From: Pseudomonas sediminis
Lineage (GTDB): Bacteria; Pseudomonadota; Gammaproteobacteria; Pseudomonadales; Pseudomonadaceae
NCBI RefSeq assembly: GCF_039555755.1
Contig: NZ_CP154631.1
Coordinates: 2,728,001 to 2,792,000 of the forward strand
DNA length: 64,000 nt
Direction: 5' to 3'
The translations under genes and the position numbers were made by a program. Shown piece by piece: positions 24,257-55,361 of this stretch; position 1 is the first letter of the stretch; each line of letters begins with the position of its first letter. The notes under the pieces are model-generated. The model saw only the letters and a list, made by a program, of their open reading frames with translations. It made no database searches and was not told the DNA's origin.

Positions 24257-24296
24257 AAAAAAGCGGGATGACCTTCACACGTCATCCCGCTTTTTT
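24257..24296 (+). terminator. Strong terminator or attenuator upstream of carA
   Basis: A 16-bp perfect stem (24257-24272 with 24281-24296; core GCGGGATGAC / GTCATCCCGC) has an 8-base loop and ends in T6. It lies 107 bases after the dapB stop and only 44 bases before the carA start. It either ends dapB transcription or acts as an attenuator on a carA leader. Confidence 0.85.
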
Positions 24297-24340
24297 ACAA
24301 CCTGCGTTTGCTTCAAGCCTTGATCGAGACGGAGGTCTTC

Positions 24341-25489
24341 TTGACTAAGCCAGCCCCCAAACCTGCCATTTTGGCCCTTGCTGACGGCAGCATTTTTCGC
24401 GGCGATTCCATCGGGGCCGATGGCCAGACGATTGGAGAGGTGGTGTTCAACACCGCCATGACCGGCTATCAGGAAATCCTTACCGATCCATCCTATGCCC
24501 AGCAGATCGTTACCCTGACTTACCCGCACATCGGCAACACCGGCACCACGCCGGAAGATGCCGAGTCCAACCGCGTATGGGCCGCTGGCCTGATCATTCG
24601 TGACCTGCCGCTGATCTCCAGCAACTGGCGCGACAAGCAACCGCTGGACGAGTACCTGAAAGCCAACGGCACCGTCGCCATCGCCGGTATCGATACGCGC
24701 CGCCTGACCCGCATCCTGCGCGAGAAGGGTTCGCAGAACGGCTGCATCCTGGTCGGTGACGACGCCACCGAAGAGAAAGCACTGGAGCTGGCGCGCAGCT
24801 TCCCGGGTCTCAAGGGTATGGATCTGGCCAAGGTGGTCAGCTGCACCGAGCGCTACGAGTGGCGCGAAAGCACCTGGAATCTGAAGAACGACAGCCATCC
24901 GGAAATCCCGGCCAGCGAACTGCCTTATCACGTGGTCGCCTACGACTACGGTGTGAAGCTGAACATCCTGCGCATGCTGGTCGAGCGTGGCTGCCGCCTG
25001 ACCGTGGTGCCGGCGCAAACTCCGGCCAGCGACGTGCTGGCGCTCAATCCCGATGGTGTGTTCCTGTCCAACGGCCCTGGCGATCCCGAGCCGTGCGACT
25101 ACGCGATCCAGGCGATCAAGGACGTGCTGGAAACCGATATCCCGGTATTCGGCATCTGCCTCGGCCACCAGTTGCTGGCCCTGGCCTCCGGCGCCAAGAC
25201 CCTGAAAATGGGTCATGGCCATCACGGTGCCAACCACCCGGTACAGGATCTCGACAGCGGCGTGGTGATGATCACCAGCCAGAACCACGGTTTTGCCGTG
25301 GACGAAAGCAGCCTGCCGAGCAATGTGCGTCCGATCCACAAGTCGCTGTTCGACGGCACCCTGCAGGGCATCGAGCGTACCGACAAGGACGCCTTCAGCT
25401 TCCAGGGTCACCCCGAGGCGAGCCCCGGCCCGCACGACGTGGCGCCGCTGTTCGACCGCTTCATCGAAGCCATGGCCAAGCGCCGTTAA
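24341..25489 (+). CDS. carA: Carbamoyl-phosphate synthase small subunit
   Basis: About 382 aa. This is the glutamine amidotransferase subunit, feeding ammonia to CarB for arginine and pyrimidine synthesis. A TTG at 24341 is taken as the start because GGAGG lies five bases upstream and the protein then begins [17 protein letters not shown], close to other CarA proteins. The class I triad includes the Cys in [12 protein letters not shown] and the His/Glu in [11 protein letters not shown]. carB follows after 36 bases. Confidence 0.95.
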
Positions 25490-42496: not shown

Positions 42497-42666
42497 CACC
42501 GAACGATTCGGCCGAGATGGCTGAAAGCCTGATGCTGACGATGTCGTCATCAGGTACTGCGAGGGTGGCTGTTAGTAGGCACGGTCATACCTCTTTTTAA
42601 AACACGGGGAGCGATTCCCGGCCTATTGAGACTGCTTCGGCAGTTTCCCGATGAGAGGAAGCCAAC

Positions 42667-42936
42667 ATGGCACTCAGCGTTGAAGAAAAAGCCCAGATCG
42701 TTAACGACTACAAGCAAGCTGAAGGCGATACCGGTAGCCCGGAAGTGCAGGTTGCCCTGCTGACCGCCAACATCAACAAGCTGCAAGGCCACTTCAAGGC
42801 CAACGGTAAAGATCACCACAGCCGTCGTGGTCTGATCCGTATGGTTAACCAGCGTCGTAAGCTGCTGGACTACCTGAAGGGTAAAGACACCAGTCGTTAC
42901 AGCGCCCTGATCGGTCGCCTGGGCCTGCGTCGTTAA
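42667..42936 (+). CDS. rpsO: 30S ribosomal protein S15
   Basis: 89 aa. S15 binds the 16S central domain. Conserved segments are [41 protein letters not shown] and the [12 protein letters not shown] end. The 170-base leader between truB and rpsO probably holds its promoter and an autoregulatory structure, but I could not define either from sequence alone. Confidence 0.99.
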
Positions 42937-51927: not shown

Positions 51928-52031
51928 AGCCTTTTTTTGTGCCTGATCGTCAGGGGGCGCTCGAACTCTGCCACTGTCCAGGTCATCCAGGGGCGGCGTT
52001 TTTCAAGATAGTTGTCGCGTCGACCGTGTTT

Positions 52032-53018
52032 TCAGGCCGCCTTTTTCTGCGGCTGTTGTTCCTGCTCCCGCTCGGGGTTGAGTGTCACCGCTCCGACCGG
52101 CGTCCAGTTGCGTGTGGTGCCTGACCAGCGCTCCGGCATGCGCTGGCGGGCTTCTTGGTACAGCGCATGGCGATGGGCCAGCGCGCGGTGATCTTCACCC
52201 CGATGGCGCTCTGCCGGTGTCACGAAACCGATGCGGCTGTGCCGGTGCTCGTGGTTGTACCAGCGGATGAAATCTCTCACCCAGCAACGTGCCGCTTCCA
52301 GGTCGGCGAAGCCTTGTTTCGGCCACTGCGGGCAGTATTTCAGCGTGCGGAACAGCGATTCCGAGTAGGGGTTGTCGTCGCTCACCCGCGGGCGGTTGTG
52401 CGACGGCGTGACGCCCAGGTCGTACATCTTTTGCAGCATGGTCGCCGATTTCATCGGTGCACCGTTGTCCGAGTGCAGTACCGGCAGCTTGAGCAGGCAC
52501 TGCTCGCTGAGCACGCTGCGTTGCAGCAGCATGGCACCCAGCTCGCCGCTTTCCTGTTCGTGGACCTCCCAGCCCACCGCCTTGCGGCTGTAGATGTCCT
52601 CGATCAGGTACAGGTAGAAATACTTCCCGCGTACCGCCGCCGGGAGATAGGTGATGTCCCATGACCAGACCTGATTGGCGGCGGTCGCTACATGGCTGGT
52701 CGGCGCTTTCACCGTGCGCGGTGGCTGGCTGCGACCGCGGCGATGCTGCTGATCGGCTGCGTGCAGGACGCGGTAGAACGTCGACTCCGAGGCCAGGTAA
52801 CGCCCGGCATCCGCCAGCCTCGGCACGATCTGGCTGGGCGGCAGATGCGCGTATTCCGGGCTGTTGCAGACGGCCAGGATGGCTTCGCGCTCAGCCGGGC
52901 TCAGTGCATTGCGCGGCACCGGTCGCTTGGCTGTGGGGCGGGCATCAGCGCGCACGACGTTCTCCTCGGTCCAGCGTTGCAGGGTGCGCAGGGACACGCT
53001 CAGCTCCTTGCAGGCCAA
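52032..53018 (-). CDS. IS3-family transposase OrfB (integrase core)
   Basis: 328 aa from an internal TTG; coding continues upstream in this frame to the frameshift site near 53130 (AERLLGQRQRGQLIPLPERQ...). The HTH_21-type region and the rve integrase core carry Asp in WSWDITYLPA, Asp in LHSDNGAPM, and Glu in NPYSESLFRTLKY. In IS3 elements OrfB is normally made as an OrfAB fusion by -1 frameshifting, so the TTG is only a nominal start. Confidence 0.9.
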   Translation of the reverse strand: MACKELSVSLRTLQRWTEENVVRADARPTAKRPVPRNALSPAEREAILAVCNSPEYAHLPPSQIVPRLADAGRYLASESTFYRVLHAADQQHRRGRSQPPRTVKAPTSHVATAANQVWSWDITYLPAAVRGKYFYLYLIEDIYSRKAVGWEVHEQESGELGAMLLQRSVLSEQCLLKLPVLHSDNGAPMKSATMLQKMYDLGVTPSHNRPRVSDDNPYSESLFRTLKYCPQWPKQGFADLEAARCWVRDFIRWYNHEHRHSRIGFVTPAERHRGEDHRALAHRHALYQEARQRMPERWSGTTRNWTPVGAVTLNPEREQEQQPQKKAA

Positions 53019-53089
53019 CGTTTTACGGGCACCTGCGGCGACGGCTTCGTTCAGCCATTCAACGAGTTTCTGCCGTTCTGGCAGCGGGA

Positions 53090-53590
53090 TCAGTTGTCCT
53101 CGCTGTCGTTGCCCCAGTAGGCGTTCAGCTTTTTTCGCAGCACCAGAATCGCTGCCGCCTCGGCCAACGCCTTGTCCTTGCGGCGCAGCTCGCGCTCCAG
53201 CTCACGGATGCGTTTCTTGTCTGCCTTGGCTTGCTCGCGCTCGGCCTGTCGCTGCGCCTGTGCCGACTGCTGGCCGCTGATGCACGCCTACCGCCAGGTC
53301 TGCACCTGCTCGGGGTAGAGCCCCTTACGTCGGCAGTACTCGCTCAGTTCGATTTCCGACAGCGCAGCGGTTTCCAGCACGACGGCGAACTTGGCCTCGG
53401 CCGACCAGTCATCGGGCAGTTTCTTGTCTCCTGGCACGGGGGCTCCTTCAGCCTTGGCCTGTTTGCGCCAAGCATACAGGGTCATCTTGGAGACGCCTTC
53501 CTGGCGGGCGACCTCAGCCACGGACAGGTTGATCGGTGGCAGCAGCTTCTTCAGCAGGGCAGCTTTTCGTTCAGCAGAGTAACGCGGCAT
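53090..53590 (-). pseudogene. IS3-family OrfA with amber mutation
   Basis: The 166-codon frame (MPRYSAERKAALLKKLLPP to NAYWGNDSEDN) contains a helix-turn-helix (SVAEVARQEGVSKMTLYAWRKQ) and a C-terminal leucine-zipper-like helix (KKRIRELERELRRKDKALAE). It is broken by TAG at 53288-53290 after QVQTWR, where CAG (Gln) is the likely original. The stop precedes the A-AAA-AAG slippery site (53129-53135 on the complement), so the OrfAB fusion cannot be made without suppression. Confidence 0.88.
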
Positions 53591-53659
53591 TGCATGGCTC
53601 TTTCCGCCCCCGGGGTTCAGTTTGGGTGAATCCGATCAGGCGACAACTATCCTGACACC

Positions 53660-53911
53660 GGGGGGGGGCTGCTCCATATTGCTTTAGATACGCGCCGGTA
53701 GTGGCTTGGTGCCATGTTCATGCAAATTGCCCGAGGTCTTTTATGCGATTCGGCGAAATGCAATCAAAAGTGTAATGGTGATTTTATTTAAGTTATTGTT
53801 TTTAAAGGATTTTTTTTATTTTAAAACCTGGCACAGGCCCTGCAATAGTACTAGTGAACCTGCAGCCAGGAGTTGGTTTGCAGATTGTCTGGAATGTACA
53901 GGAGTCGAATC
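53660..53911 (+). promoter_or_regulatory. AT-rich upstream region of the BON gene
   Basis: This 250-base gap holds a very AT-rich stretch (about 53770-53826), unlike the rest of the window. A GAACCT at 53856-53861 resembles the -35 of AlgU/RpoE-type promoters (GAACTT), with no clear TCTGA at 16-17 bases. It probably contains the promoter for the BON and CsbD genes. Confidence 0.4.
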
Positions 53912-54265
53912 ATGAAACAGCCAATCAACCGTTTTGCCGCTACTACCCTGACCGCTGCCGTGCTGAGCATGTCTCTGGCCTCCGCAGCCTTCGCCGCTGA
54001 GCCGACCATGCTTGCAGCCAGTGACACTGTGGATAAAGCCGAGCAGGCGGTATCCGACACTTGGATCACCAGCAAAGTGAAATCCACCTTCGTTGCTGAC
54101 TCGAACCTCAGCGCGCTGGACATCAAGGTCGAGACCAACCAGGGCGTAGTTTCCCTGTCCGGCGTGGTCGCTACCGACGCCGAGCGTGATCTGGCTATCG
54201 CCAAGACCAAGGAAATCGAGGGTGTGCGTGACGTGTCCGCTGATGCCCTGAAAACCGCTGACTGA
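53912..54265 (+). CDS. Periplasmic BON-domain protein (OsmY-like)
   Basis: 117 aa. A signal peptide (about residues 1-29, ending ASAAFA) precedes one BON domain (about 48-115, [36 protein letters not shown]). OsmY-type BON proteins are envelope-stress or osmotically induced and bind membrane phospholipid. AGGAG lies before the ATG at 53912. The gene is followed by csbD-like, a pairing I recall from PAO1 (PA4739-PA4738). Confidence 0.92.
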
Positions 54266-54323
54266 TAGCCGGGCCGGCCGGGCTAGCGCCCGGCCCCCAC
54301 CTTCTGTCACTGGGAGAATGACC

Positions 54324-54521
54324 ATGAATAGCGACATCATCAAAGGCAAATGGAAGCAGCTCAGCGGTCGTATGAAGGAGCGTTGGGGCAACCTGACCGA
54401 TGACGACCTGGACGTCGCCGAGGGCCACAGCGAATACCTGGCTGGCAGGCTGCAAGAACGTTACGGCTGGACCAAGGAAAAGGCCCAGCAAGAGCTGCGC
54501 GATTTCAGCGACAAGCTCTAA
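54324..54521 (+). CDS. CsbD-family stress-response protein
   Basis: 65 aa ([20 protein letters not shown] to LRDFSDKL), the YjbJ/CsbD type: a small hydrophilic protein strongly induced by general stress, with unknown mechanism. The ATG at 54324 is spaced properly from GGGAG; the ATG at 54318 is too close. It lies 58 bases after the BON gene and directly before the GGA-rich RNA candidate. Confidence 0.92.
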
Positions 54522-54525
54522 GTAG

Positions 54526-54683
54526 GGATTATCTGGTAAGGATGCCGATTAAGCACGGACAGCTATGGAAACGGATGTCTCAGCAGCACGGATGGCTGCA
54601 GGCAGGACGCCTGATCTGCACGGATAGCGAAAGCATGGATGCGCGAAGGCCCCGTCGGTGTAACCGACGGGGCCTCGATTTTT
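54526..54683 (+). ncRNA. Candidate RsmA/CsrA-binding RNA (GGA-rich, terminator-ended)
   Basis: Nine GGA triplets occur in 114 bases (54526, 54540, 54557, 54567, 54573, 54590, 54605, 54622 and 54637), seven of them as A-N-GGA, the CsrA/RsmA core. One is displayed in a perfect hairpin loop: GCAGC-ACGGATG-GCTGC (54583-54599). Another sits in AGC-ACGGACA-GCT (54552-54564). A 13-bp terminator stem (54647-54659 / 54663-54675) with T5 follows. There is no open frame of note. It could be an independent sRNA or the 3' UTR of the csbD mRNA. No GacA-type upstream box was found. Confidence 0.6.
54647..54683 (+). terminator. Strong Rho-independent terminator of the GGA-rich RNA
   Basis: AGGCCCCGTCGGT and ACCGACGGGGCCT form a perfect 13-bp stem with loop GTA, followed by CGATTTTT. 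Confidence 0.9.
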
Positions 54684-54736
54684 GTGCTGAGCACTAGAAA
54701 TGCGTCAGGCAGGTGCACCCGGCATGCAGGGTTCGA

Positions 54737-55039
54737 TCAGCTACCGCGCTTGCTGCGGACCTCGGTCAGGCGGCCGCCCTCGAAGCGGAGAAAGTGGTAC
54801 ATGCCGCTTTTCGGGCCGTAGATCCACTCCTCGACACTCACCTCATTACGAAAACCATAGCTGTCGACCACTTCCTTGTAGCCGACAAAGTCGCGGCTGG
54901 AAGGCTCGCCACATTTGTTCAGCACCTCTGCAGTGGGCGCTGTCTTGCTGACCAGGGCGCTACCGCAGCGATAGGTGGAGGACGCCTCGGCCATCAGGGG
55001 CAGGCAGAGCAGGGTGAGCAGACAGCTGAATTTGCGCAT
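54737..55039 (-). CDS. Small secreted DUF2845-type protein (copy A)
   Basis: 100 aa with a signal peptide (MRKFSCLLTLLCLPLMAEAS). The mature part contains YRCGSALVSKTAPTAEVLNK and CGEP, then VEEWIYGPKSGMYHFLRFEGGRL, the DUF2845 pattern. An AGGAGG site precedes the ATG at 55039. It is 13 bases downstream of a paralogue with the same layout. Probably periplasmic; function unknown. Confidence 0.85.
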   Translation of the reverse strand: MRKFSCLLTLLCLPLMAEASSTYRCGSALVSKTAPTAEVLNKCGEPSSRDFVGYKEVVDSYGFRNEVSVEEWIYGPKSGMYHFLRFEGGRLTEVRSKRGS

Positions 55040-55052
55040 GAGAACCTCCTGC

Positions 55053-55361
55053 TCAGCGTTCGCGCCGGCGTTCAATGACGGTCAGACGGTTACCCTCGAA
55101 ACGCAGGATGCTGAGCATGCCGTTGCTCGGGCCGTATACCCATTCCTCGATCATGTACTCACGACGGTCATAGGAGCCCAGGGTGTAGCCGACTGGGTCA
55201 CGGTGCACTGGCGCGCCACATTTACGCTCGACCTCGAACGGGCGGTCGCCCAGGTTGACCAGGGCGCTGCCGCAACGCAGCGTGTCGGCCTGCGCGTTGG
55301 TACTGTTCAGGCCGGTAACCAGGGCGGTGAACGTGATGATGGATAAGCTGCGCATGATCAT
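55053..55361 (-). CDS. Small secreted DUF2845-type protein (copy B)
   Basis: 102 aa, signal peptide then LRCGSALVNLGDRPFEVERK, CGAP, RDPVGY and EEWVYGPSNGMLSILRFEGNRL. It is paralogous to the gene just downstream (same cysteines, same EEW-YGP and LRFEG blocks). The ATG at 55361 overlaps the stop of the DUF748 gene (ATGA); a start at 55355 is also possible. Function unknown. Confidence 0.85.
   Translation of the reverse strand: MIMRSLSIITFTALVTGLNSTNAQADTLRCGSALVNLGDRPFEVERKCGAPVHRDPVGYTLGSYDRREYMIEEWVYGPSNGMLSILRFEGNRLTVIERRRER

Follow-up and report, generated by a model that had tools for sequence, protein, structure and literature searches.

The BON-csbD operon of this Pseudomonas genome is followed by a stretch rich in GGA triplets, which raises the question of whether the csbD 3′ UTR is an RNA element that sequesters RsmA. 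A sequence-only reading had likened this stretch to the Rsm small RNAs and suggested that it might be a Gac-independent or 3′-UTR-derived sponge. We analyzed it within the 64,000-nt stretch of DNA in which it lies (the window) and compared it with its counterparts in related genomes.

The GGA array behind csbD

The 3′ half of the locus comprises the following features:

53912..54265, + strand: BON-domain gene, the first gene of the operon (Pfam BON PF04972, 64.3 bits)
54318..54521, + strand: csbD gene (Pfam CsbD PF05532, 70.4 bits), whose 3′ UTR is the array
54522..54646, + strand: GGA array, a candidate RsmA-sequestering element (125 nt, from the csbD stop to the terminator)
54583..54599, + strand: hairpin GCAGC-ACGGATG-GCTGC, with a GGA in its loop
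54599..54613, + strand: hairpin CAGGC-AGGAC-GCCTG, with a GGA in its loop
54647..54685, + strand: intrinsic terminator, a 13-bp stem followed by a T-rich tail, kept in the alignment of relatives

All nine GGA triplets that the sequence-only reading had counted after the csbD stop codon (54519-54521) were located in 54522-54646, starting at 54526, 54540, 54557, 54567, 54573, 54590, 54605, 54622 and 54637. Its count of seven A-N-GGA has to be raised to eight, the sole exception being GCAGGAC at 54605. Eight of the units are shared with relatives and follow one another at a spacing of 14-17 nt, and the extra one at 54567 is lineage-specific. The hairpin GCAGC-ACGGATG-GCTGC and the 13-bp terminator that had been pointed out are likewise present, the former at 54583-54599 as part of the minimum-energy fold and the latter as 13 pairs (54647-54675) ahead of a run of T's. 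An intrinsic terminator at the 3′ end is a mark of Csr/Rsm sequestering RNAs, and we propose that this one forms the 3′ end of the RNA. A consensus scan for sigma70-type promoters and intrinsic terminators found none on the + strand from 54318 to 54646; by the same scan, no terminator or promoter separates csbD from the array, which is the arrangement of the RsmW type. Overlap of the array with the convergent neighboring gene was ruled out because the open frame of that neighbor ends at 54737, beyond the array. The − strand between 54737 and 55361 holds two adjacent small open frames that look alike by eye, and the frame at 55053-55361 is a DUF2845 gene (Pfam PF11006).

Dinucleotide-preserving shuffles of the array (n=5000) contained 4.0 GGA and 1.1 A-N-GGA on average; nine GGA were reached by 3/5000 of them and eight A-N-GGA by 0/5000. 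As a genomic control we combined the 64-kb window with 400 kb (20 stretches) of the same genome and counted both strands of these 464 kb in 922,792 segments of 125 nt, array included, which gave means of 1.4 GGA and 0.25 A-N-GGA per segment. Multiple A-N-GGA above background are expected of a Csr/Rsm sequestering RNA, and the array holds the maximum, eight, against five at the best place outside it (464 kb, both strands, all segments). On the same 464 kb and both strands, raw GGA count is less exclusive, with one other place also reaching nine, as is the number of hairpin-presented GGA, in which another place ties with the array at six. The array is an outlier in A-N-GGA density only. The RsmY and RsmZ of this genome have seven GGA and three A-N-GGA each.

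Conservation, origin and folding of the array

We examined how far the array extends among relatives by a CsbD scan with one genome per species (217 relatives), from which the best 80 loci of 217 were kept. Eight to nine GGA lie within 150 nt 3′ of the csbD stop in 14 of these 80 loci (L002-L013, L015, L019). Pseudomonas khazarica (L017) has four GGA units ahead of its terminator and P. mendocina EF27 (L016) has two. None of the remaining 64 loci exceeds five GGA or three A-N-GGA, in counts that run beyond the terminators. The sequence-only reading had staked its proposal on the conservation of the GGA motifs among close relatives that keep the terminator. This is borne out across 17 aligned arrays, in which eight units stand in register; against it, L016 has two units with its terminator kept, and L053 and L072 have none though theirs is kept as well. 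A FastTree phylogeny of csbD and BON, which is built on two short genes, midpoint-rooted and not to be trusted in its fine branching, placed the array-bearing loci together with L016 and L053 in a single clade whose basal member is P. khazarica. Because L016, with two units, and L053, with none, fall inside the array clade, the array looks dispensable.

To measure conservation we collected 19 full-length arrays from relatives of P. mendocina and merged two duplicates, which left 17 distinct ones. Invariant columns numbered 22/24 for GGA versus 29/102 for the others, and mean column identity was 0.995 versus 0.852; the associated p of 1e-8 is indicative only, because columns were treated as independent and the sequences are related. 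The GGA are thus conserved against their flanks across species, as in Csr/Rsm sequestering RNAs. The A at position -2 is kept in at least 16/17 rows for seven of the eight shared units, and the base directly before GGA is variable in seven of eight, which fits the A-N-GGA expectation. Spacing is mostly 14-18 nt; leaving aside the lineage-specific extra units of the window, L002, L019 and L105, shared units keep to this range in every array except L105 (one gap of 11), and unit spacings vary by 1-3 nt among species. In the L012 array, Tandem Repeats Finder reported a period of 31 bp in 3.3 copies, and the outer units of long arrays look like P. khazarica units (partly by eye). From the four units of P. 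khazarica and the 31-bp repeat of L012, which suggest module duplication, we infer that the array grew by duplication of a two-site module.

A covariance search in relatives, which the sequence-only reading had named as a check, led mainly to further csbD 3′ UTRs. Model R1, built from the array without its terminator, was run on 398 sampled congeneric genomes (E≤0.001 per genome) and matched 13 of them, several being the same strains as the named csbD loci. Eleven strong matches (88-143 bits) all lie 3′ of csbD, the genome studied here included, and among them is the divergent L105 with nine GGA. Three places matched weakly at 24-26 bits (L106-L108), and one of the three shares its genome with a strong match. 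L106 is a true rsmX gene (Rfam RF02144, 87.6 bits); L107 and L108 were set aside as probably chance matches because they lie within long open frames. No further copy of the array was convincing in its own genome, where three other places all had E > 1.

In the minimum-energy fold of the window RNA just two GGA hairpins are clear. The hairpin at 54583..54599 corresponds to helix 5 of our pair count, with 82% of cells paired and one pair changed on both sides, and the hairpin at 54599..54613, of which four pairs appear in the minimum-energy fold, corresponds to helix 6 (72% of cells paired). We also drew a structure of eight mini-hairpins by hand on 14 sequences (13 distinct), in which 87.5% of cells form standard pairs versus 28-44% for slid structures, a control that flatters the drawing because the structure was drawn from the same sequences. 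Four pairs in these hairpins are changed on both sides, a number matched by 1/500 shuffles; in unit 1, for example, C-G becomes U-A and the adjacent G-C becomes G-U, in two distinct rows. The number of further pair types, taken as a covariation measure, showed no excess over shuffles (14 versus a mean of 13.0, reached by 173/500).

Stems of at least 3 bp surround 65% of the 140 GGA in the 17 arrays versus 39% of 8916 genomic GGA; when the flanks were shuffled in place, the mean was 29% and the highest of 300 shuffles 42%. For single sequences the stem count gave p values of 0.0025 (window), 0.008 (L012), 0.021 (L015) and 0.18 (L105). Ensemble folding assigned the GGA a mean unpaired probability of 0.65 versus 0.39 for the other array letters (17 arrays). 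Among the eight of 17 arrays run against flank-shuffled controls, six exceeded these in accessibility at p≤0.04, and the window (p 0.15) and L105 (p 0.43) did not. The flanks of the GGA units vary yet tend to keep short hairpins, several of which are only 2-3 bp long. RNAalifold on the whole alignment preferred other pairs and retained few mini-hairpins, which weighs against one fixed structure. The array set as a whole thus offers its GGA in short hairpin loops, a signal that is weaker and mixed in single-sequence folds, and the array is better described as a series of many weak hairpins than as one rigid fold.

Relation to known Rsm RNAs

RsmA itself is present: the genome has one match to the CsrA/RsmA family (PF02599, 90.9 bits), and its translation carries L4 and R44, residues named in PMC4950607 as important for the binding of RNA by RsmE. 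Other Rsm RNAs are present as well, namely one RsmY and one RsmZ above cut-off and two divergent rsmX genes (L136, G000:C1:3145815-3145922; L137, 1794904-1795009). In all 11 array-bearing genomes checked, rsmX was found above cut-off at least twice; genomes that carry the array have no shortage of other Rsm RNAs.

At gathering score, Rfam reported nothing at the array and, in the whole window, two tRNAs, the P31 Pseudomonas sRNA (24263-24341, − strand, 54.8 bits) and a ribosomal S15 leader (42627-42723, 50.1 bits). With permissive settings, 54300-54760 yielded five weak matches, the best Rsm family among them being RsmY at 14.4 bits against a threshold of 57. Conversely, R1 scored at most 13.1 bits on known RsmX, RsmY and RsmZ loci, or missed them, except for L106, and the array therefore shares a motif with them rather than a family. 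By the covariance test the array is not a member of the RsmX, RsmY or RsmZ families, none of which it matches at gathering score. It resembles the three (RF02144, RF00195, RF00166) in its several GGA, partly in short hairpins, and in its intrinsic terminator, and differs from them in sitting in an mRNA 3′ UTR and scoring below the gathering threshold of all three; in this genome RsmY and RsmZ, unlike the array, also have a GacA box. Of the Rsm-sRNA architecture claimed by the sequence-only reading, GGA density, hairpins and terminator stand, whereas the tandem small modules and the missing Rfam Rsm match at gathering score depart from it. Although outside these families, the array very likely works as they do.

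The closest parallels come from P. aeruginosa. RsmW is a Gac-independent RNA whose binding to RsmA was shown and which appears to originate in the 3′ UTR of PA4570, its processing having been inferred from Northern bands (PMC4950607). Like the csbD array, it is linked to the 3′ UTR of a gene for a small protein, from which no terminator separates it; it has seven GGA and is about 120 nt long. RsmW lies behind PA4570, whereas the candidate here lies behind csbD and has a regular array of modules and a sigma54-type promoter; binding was demonstrated for RsmW, whereas for the array it is predicted from sequence. By this analogy the csbD array would be RsmW-like in principle. RsmV is likewise a Gac-independent RsmA-sequestering RNA, RsmV and RsmW are considered probably independent in origin, and the class is described as short hairpins exposing unpaired ANGGA (PMC7366521). 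Given RsmW and this class description, the kind of RNA is therefore already known. For the array locus itself, no description was found by title among the matches listed, in a search that most subscription papers lay outside.

Promoter region and possible roles of the array

Upstream of the BON-domain gene, the + strand holds three features of interest:

53721..53762, + strand: imperfect inverted repeat TGCAAATTGCCCGAG...CGGCGAAATGCA, possibly the site of an activator (enhancer-binding protein)
53829..53843, + strand: sigma54-type -24/-12 promoter TGGCAC-N5-CTGC of BON-csbD, as read from the sequence
53860..53883, + strand: hairpin CTGCAGCC-AGGAG-TTGGTTTGCAG that may form in the leader and whose loop contains a GGA, a possible 5′ UTR RsmA site

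A TGGCAC-N5-YTGC-like pattern, which we take to be the sigma54 promoter consensus, occurs 5′ of BON in 77/82 loci. In a control on the 80 named loci it was found upstream in 75, versus one on the reverse strand and one elsewhere in the locus. Osmotic or stress control of the operon, which the sequence-only reading had envisaged, gives way to a promoter that looks sigma54-dependent. Because the site also occurs in species without the array, the array probably joined an operon that was already under sigma54-type control. When 21 upstream sequences were aligned, the inverted repeat proved conserved while its flanks drift, and a loose pattern found both of its half sites in just 22/83 sequences. 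The region from 53721 to 53843 is laid out as inverted repeat, AT-rich stretch and sigma54-type promoter, and by eye the AT-rich stretch resembles an IHF site.

The GacA box (TGTAAG-N6-CTTACA) was searched for as TGTAAG-N5-7-CTTAC and in a looser form, and neither was found in 53301-54700, in agreement with the earlier statement that the locus has no GacA-type box; rsmY and rsmZ, which served as positive controls, each showed a box by these patterns in the 200 nt upstream. The missing box is no proof of Gac independence, because in neither rsmX gene of this genome did the pattern find a complete box. Each of these two rsmX genes has a CTTACA half site upstream. As a candidate, the Gac-independent 3′-UTR sponge put forward by the sequence-only reading gains support from the conservation of the array, the R1 matches and the absent GacA box.

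The BON leader (53860-53904) is strongly conserved, can fold with a GGA in the loop in many species and is followed by an AGGAG Shine-Dalgarno sequence. In the window a competing hairpin is the minimum-energy fold of the leader. Within the array group the loop GGA is retained, but not in every Pseudomonas, and the automatic count of 58/78 is an upper figure that includes other loops. The leader is a possible RsmA target or 5′ stabilizer.

Taken together, we consider it highly probable that the array forms an RNA element to which RsmA binds, and its main role is probably the titration of RsmA rather than control in cis. The reading we favor, with fair confidence, is that of a candidate sigma54-driven, Gac-independent RsmA sponge in the 3′ UTR. 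Under this model, the BON-csbD transcript would start at the sigma54 promoter with the help of some enhancer-binding protein, begin with a leader able to fold with a loop GGA and reaching the AGGAG Shine-Dalgarno sequence, and end in a 3′ UTR that sequesters RsmA. Each two-site module of ~31 nt could hold one RsmA dimer, so that eight sites would hold about four dimers. The 3′ part could act inside the mRNA or, after cleavage, as a piece of ~160 nt, and switching the operon on would lower free RsmA independently of GacA. A more tentative and rather doubtful extension is a dual-function mRNA, in which RsmA represses the transcript through the leader GGA hairpin and the GGA Shine-Dalgarno sequence while the 3′ sponge removes RsmA; each burst of the operon would then lift the repression both of the operon itself and of the RsmA regulon with no need of GacA, and the capacity of the sponge would have evolved by duplication of the two-site, one-dimer module, first to four sites and next to eight or nine, some arrays having contracted afterwards.

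Binding of RsmA to the array might instead matter in cis, protecting or destabilizing the BON-csbD mRNA or tying its turnover to the RsmA level, with no noticeable titration. The array does lie within the mRNA, with no promoter-like site in the sigma70-type scan between csbD and the array, and the leader combines a GGA Shine-Dalgarno sequence with a GGA able to occupy a hairpin loop, a usual layout of an RsmA target. Control in cis nevertheless calls for fewer than eight to nine sites, and an increase from four sites to eight, if it took place, fits selection on capacity; we regard the cis reading as unlikely, while bearing in mind that the P. aeruginosa transcript of PA4570, to which RsmW is joined, varies with the RsmA level (PMC4950607). 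That the GGA units are recognized by a different RNA-binding protein, or have a role connected with the ribosome, is very improbable: the triplet also looks like a Shine-Dalgarno core, but the conserved A at -2, the hairpin flanks and the weak R1 match to rsmX point to a CsrA/RsmA site. Least probable of all is a functionless tandem repeat or a short coding sequence. The 3.3 copies of 31 bp in L012 would suit the former and a 51-aa open reading frame that crosses the array in L100 and L101, both near relatives, the latter, as would a frame that in other relatives extends from csbD into the array in another reading frame. However, GGA columns are far more conserved than their neighbors, the 51-aa frame is absent from eight other strong-match relatives (L095-L098, L102-L105; frames of at least 45 aa considered), the end points of the other frame vary, and unit spacings change by 1-3 nt between species.

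If the favored sponge reading is true, the P. mendocina group would add to RsmY, RsmZ and two RsmX another RNA that sequesters RsmA, one outside the usual Gac input, and the array would be another 3′-UTR case after RsmW, suggesting that such sponges evolve time and again downstream of genes for small proteins. A natural series for relating sponge capacity to site number would be offered by the species that have zero, two, four and eight or nine units. If the sigma54 promoter is real, RpoN-controlled physiology would be linked directly to RsmA-controlled functions. NrsZ of P. aeruginosa depends on sigma54 and NtrC and is not known to be an RsmA sponge. It is a nitrogen-responsive RNA that matures by processing, as cited in PMC4950607.

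Farther upstream, an IS element with HTH_Tnp_1 and rve transposase genes on the − strand occupies 51994-53663. It ends 5′ of the BON inverted repeat and promoter and is missing at the same place in L002, where the flanking matches overlap by 4 bases.
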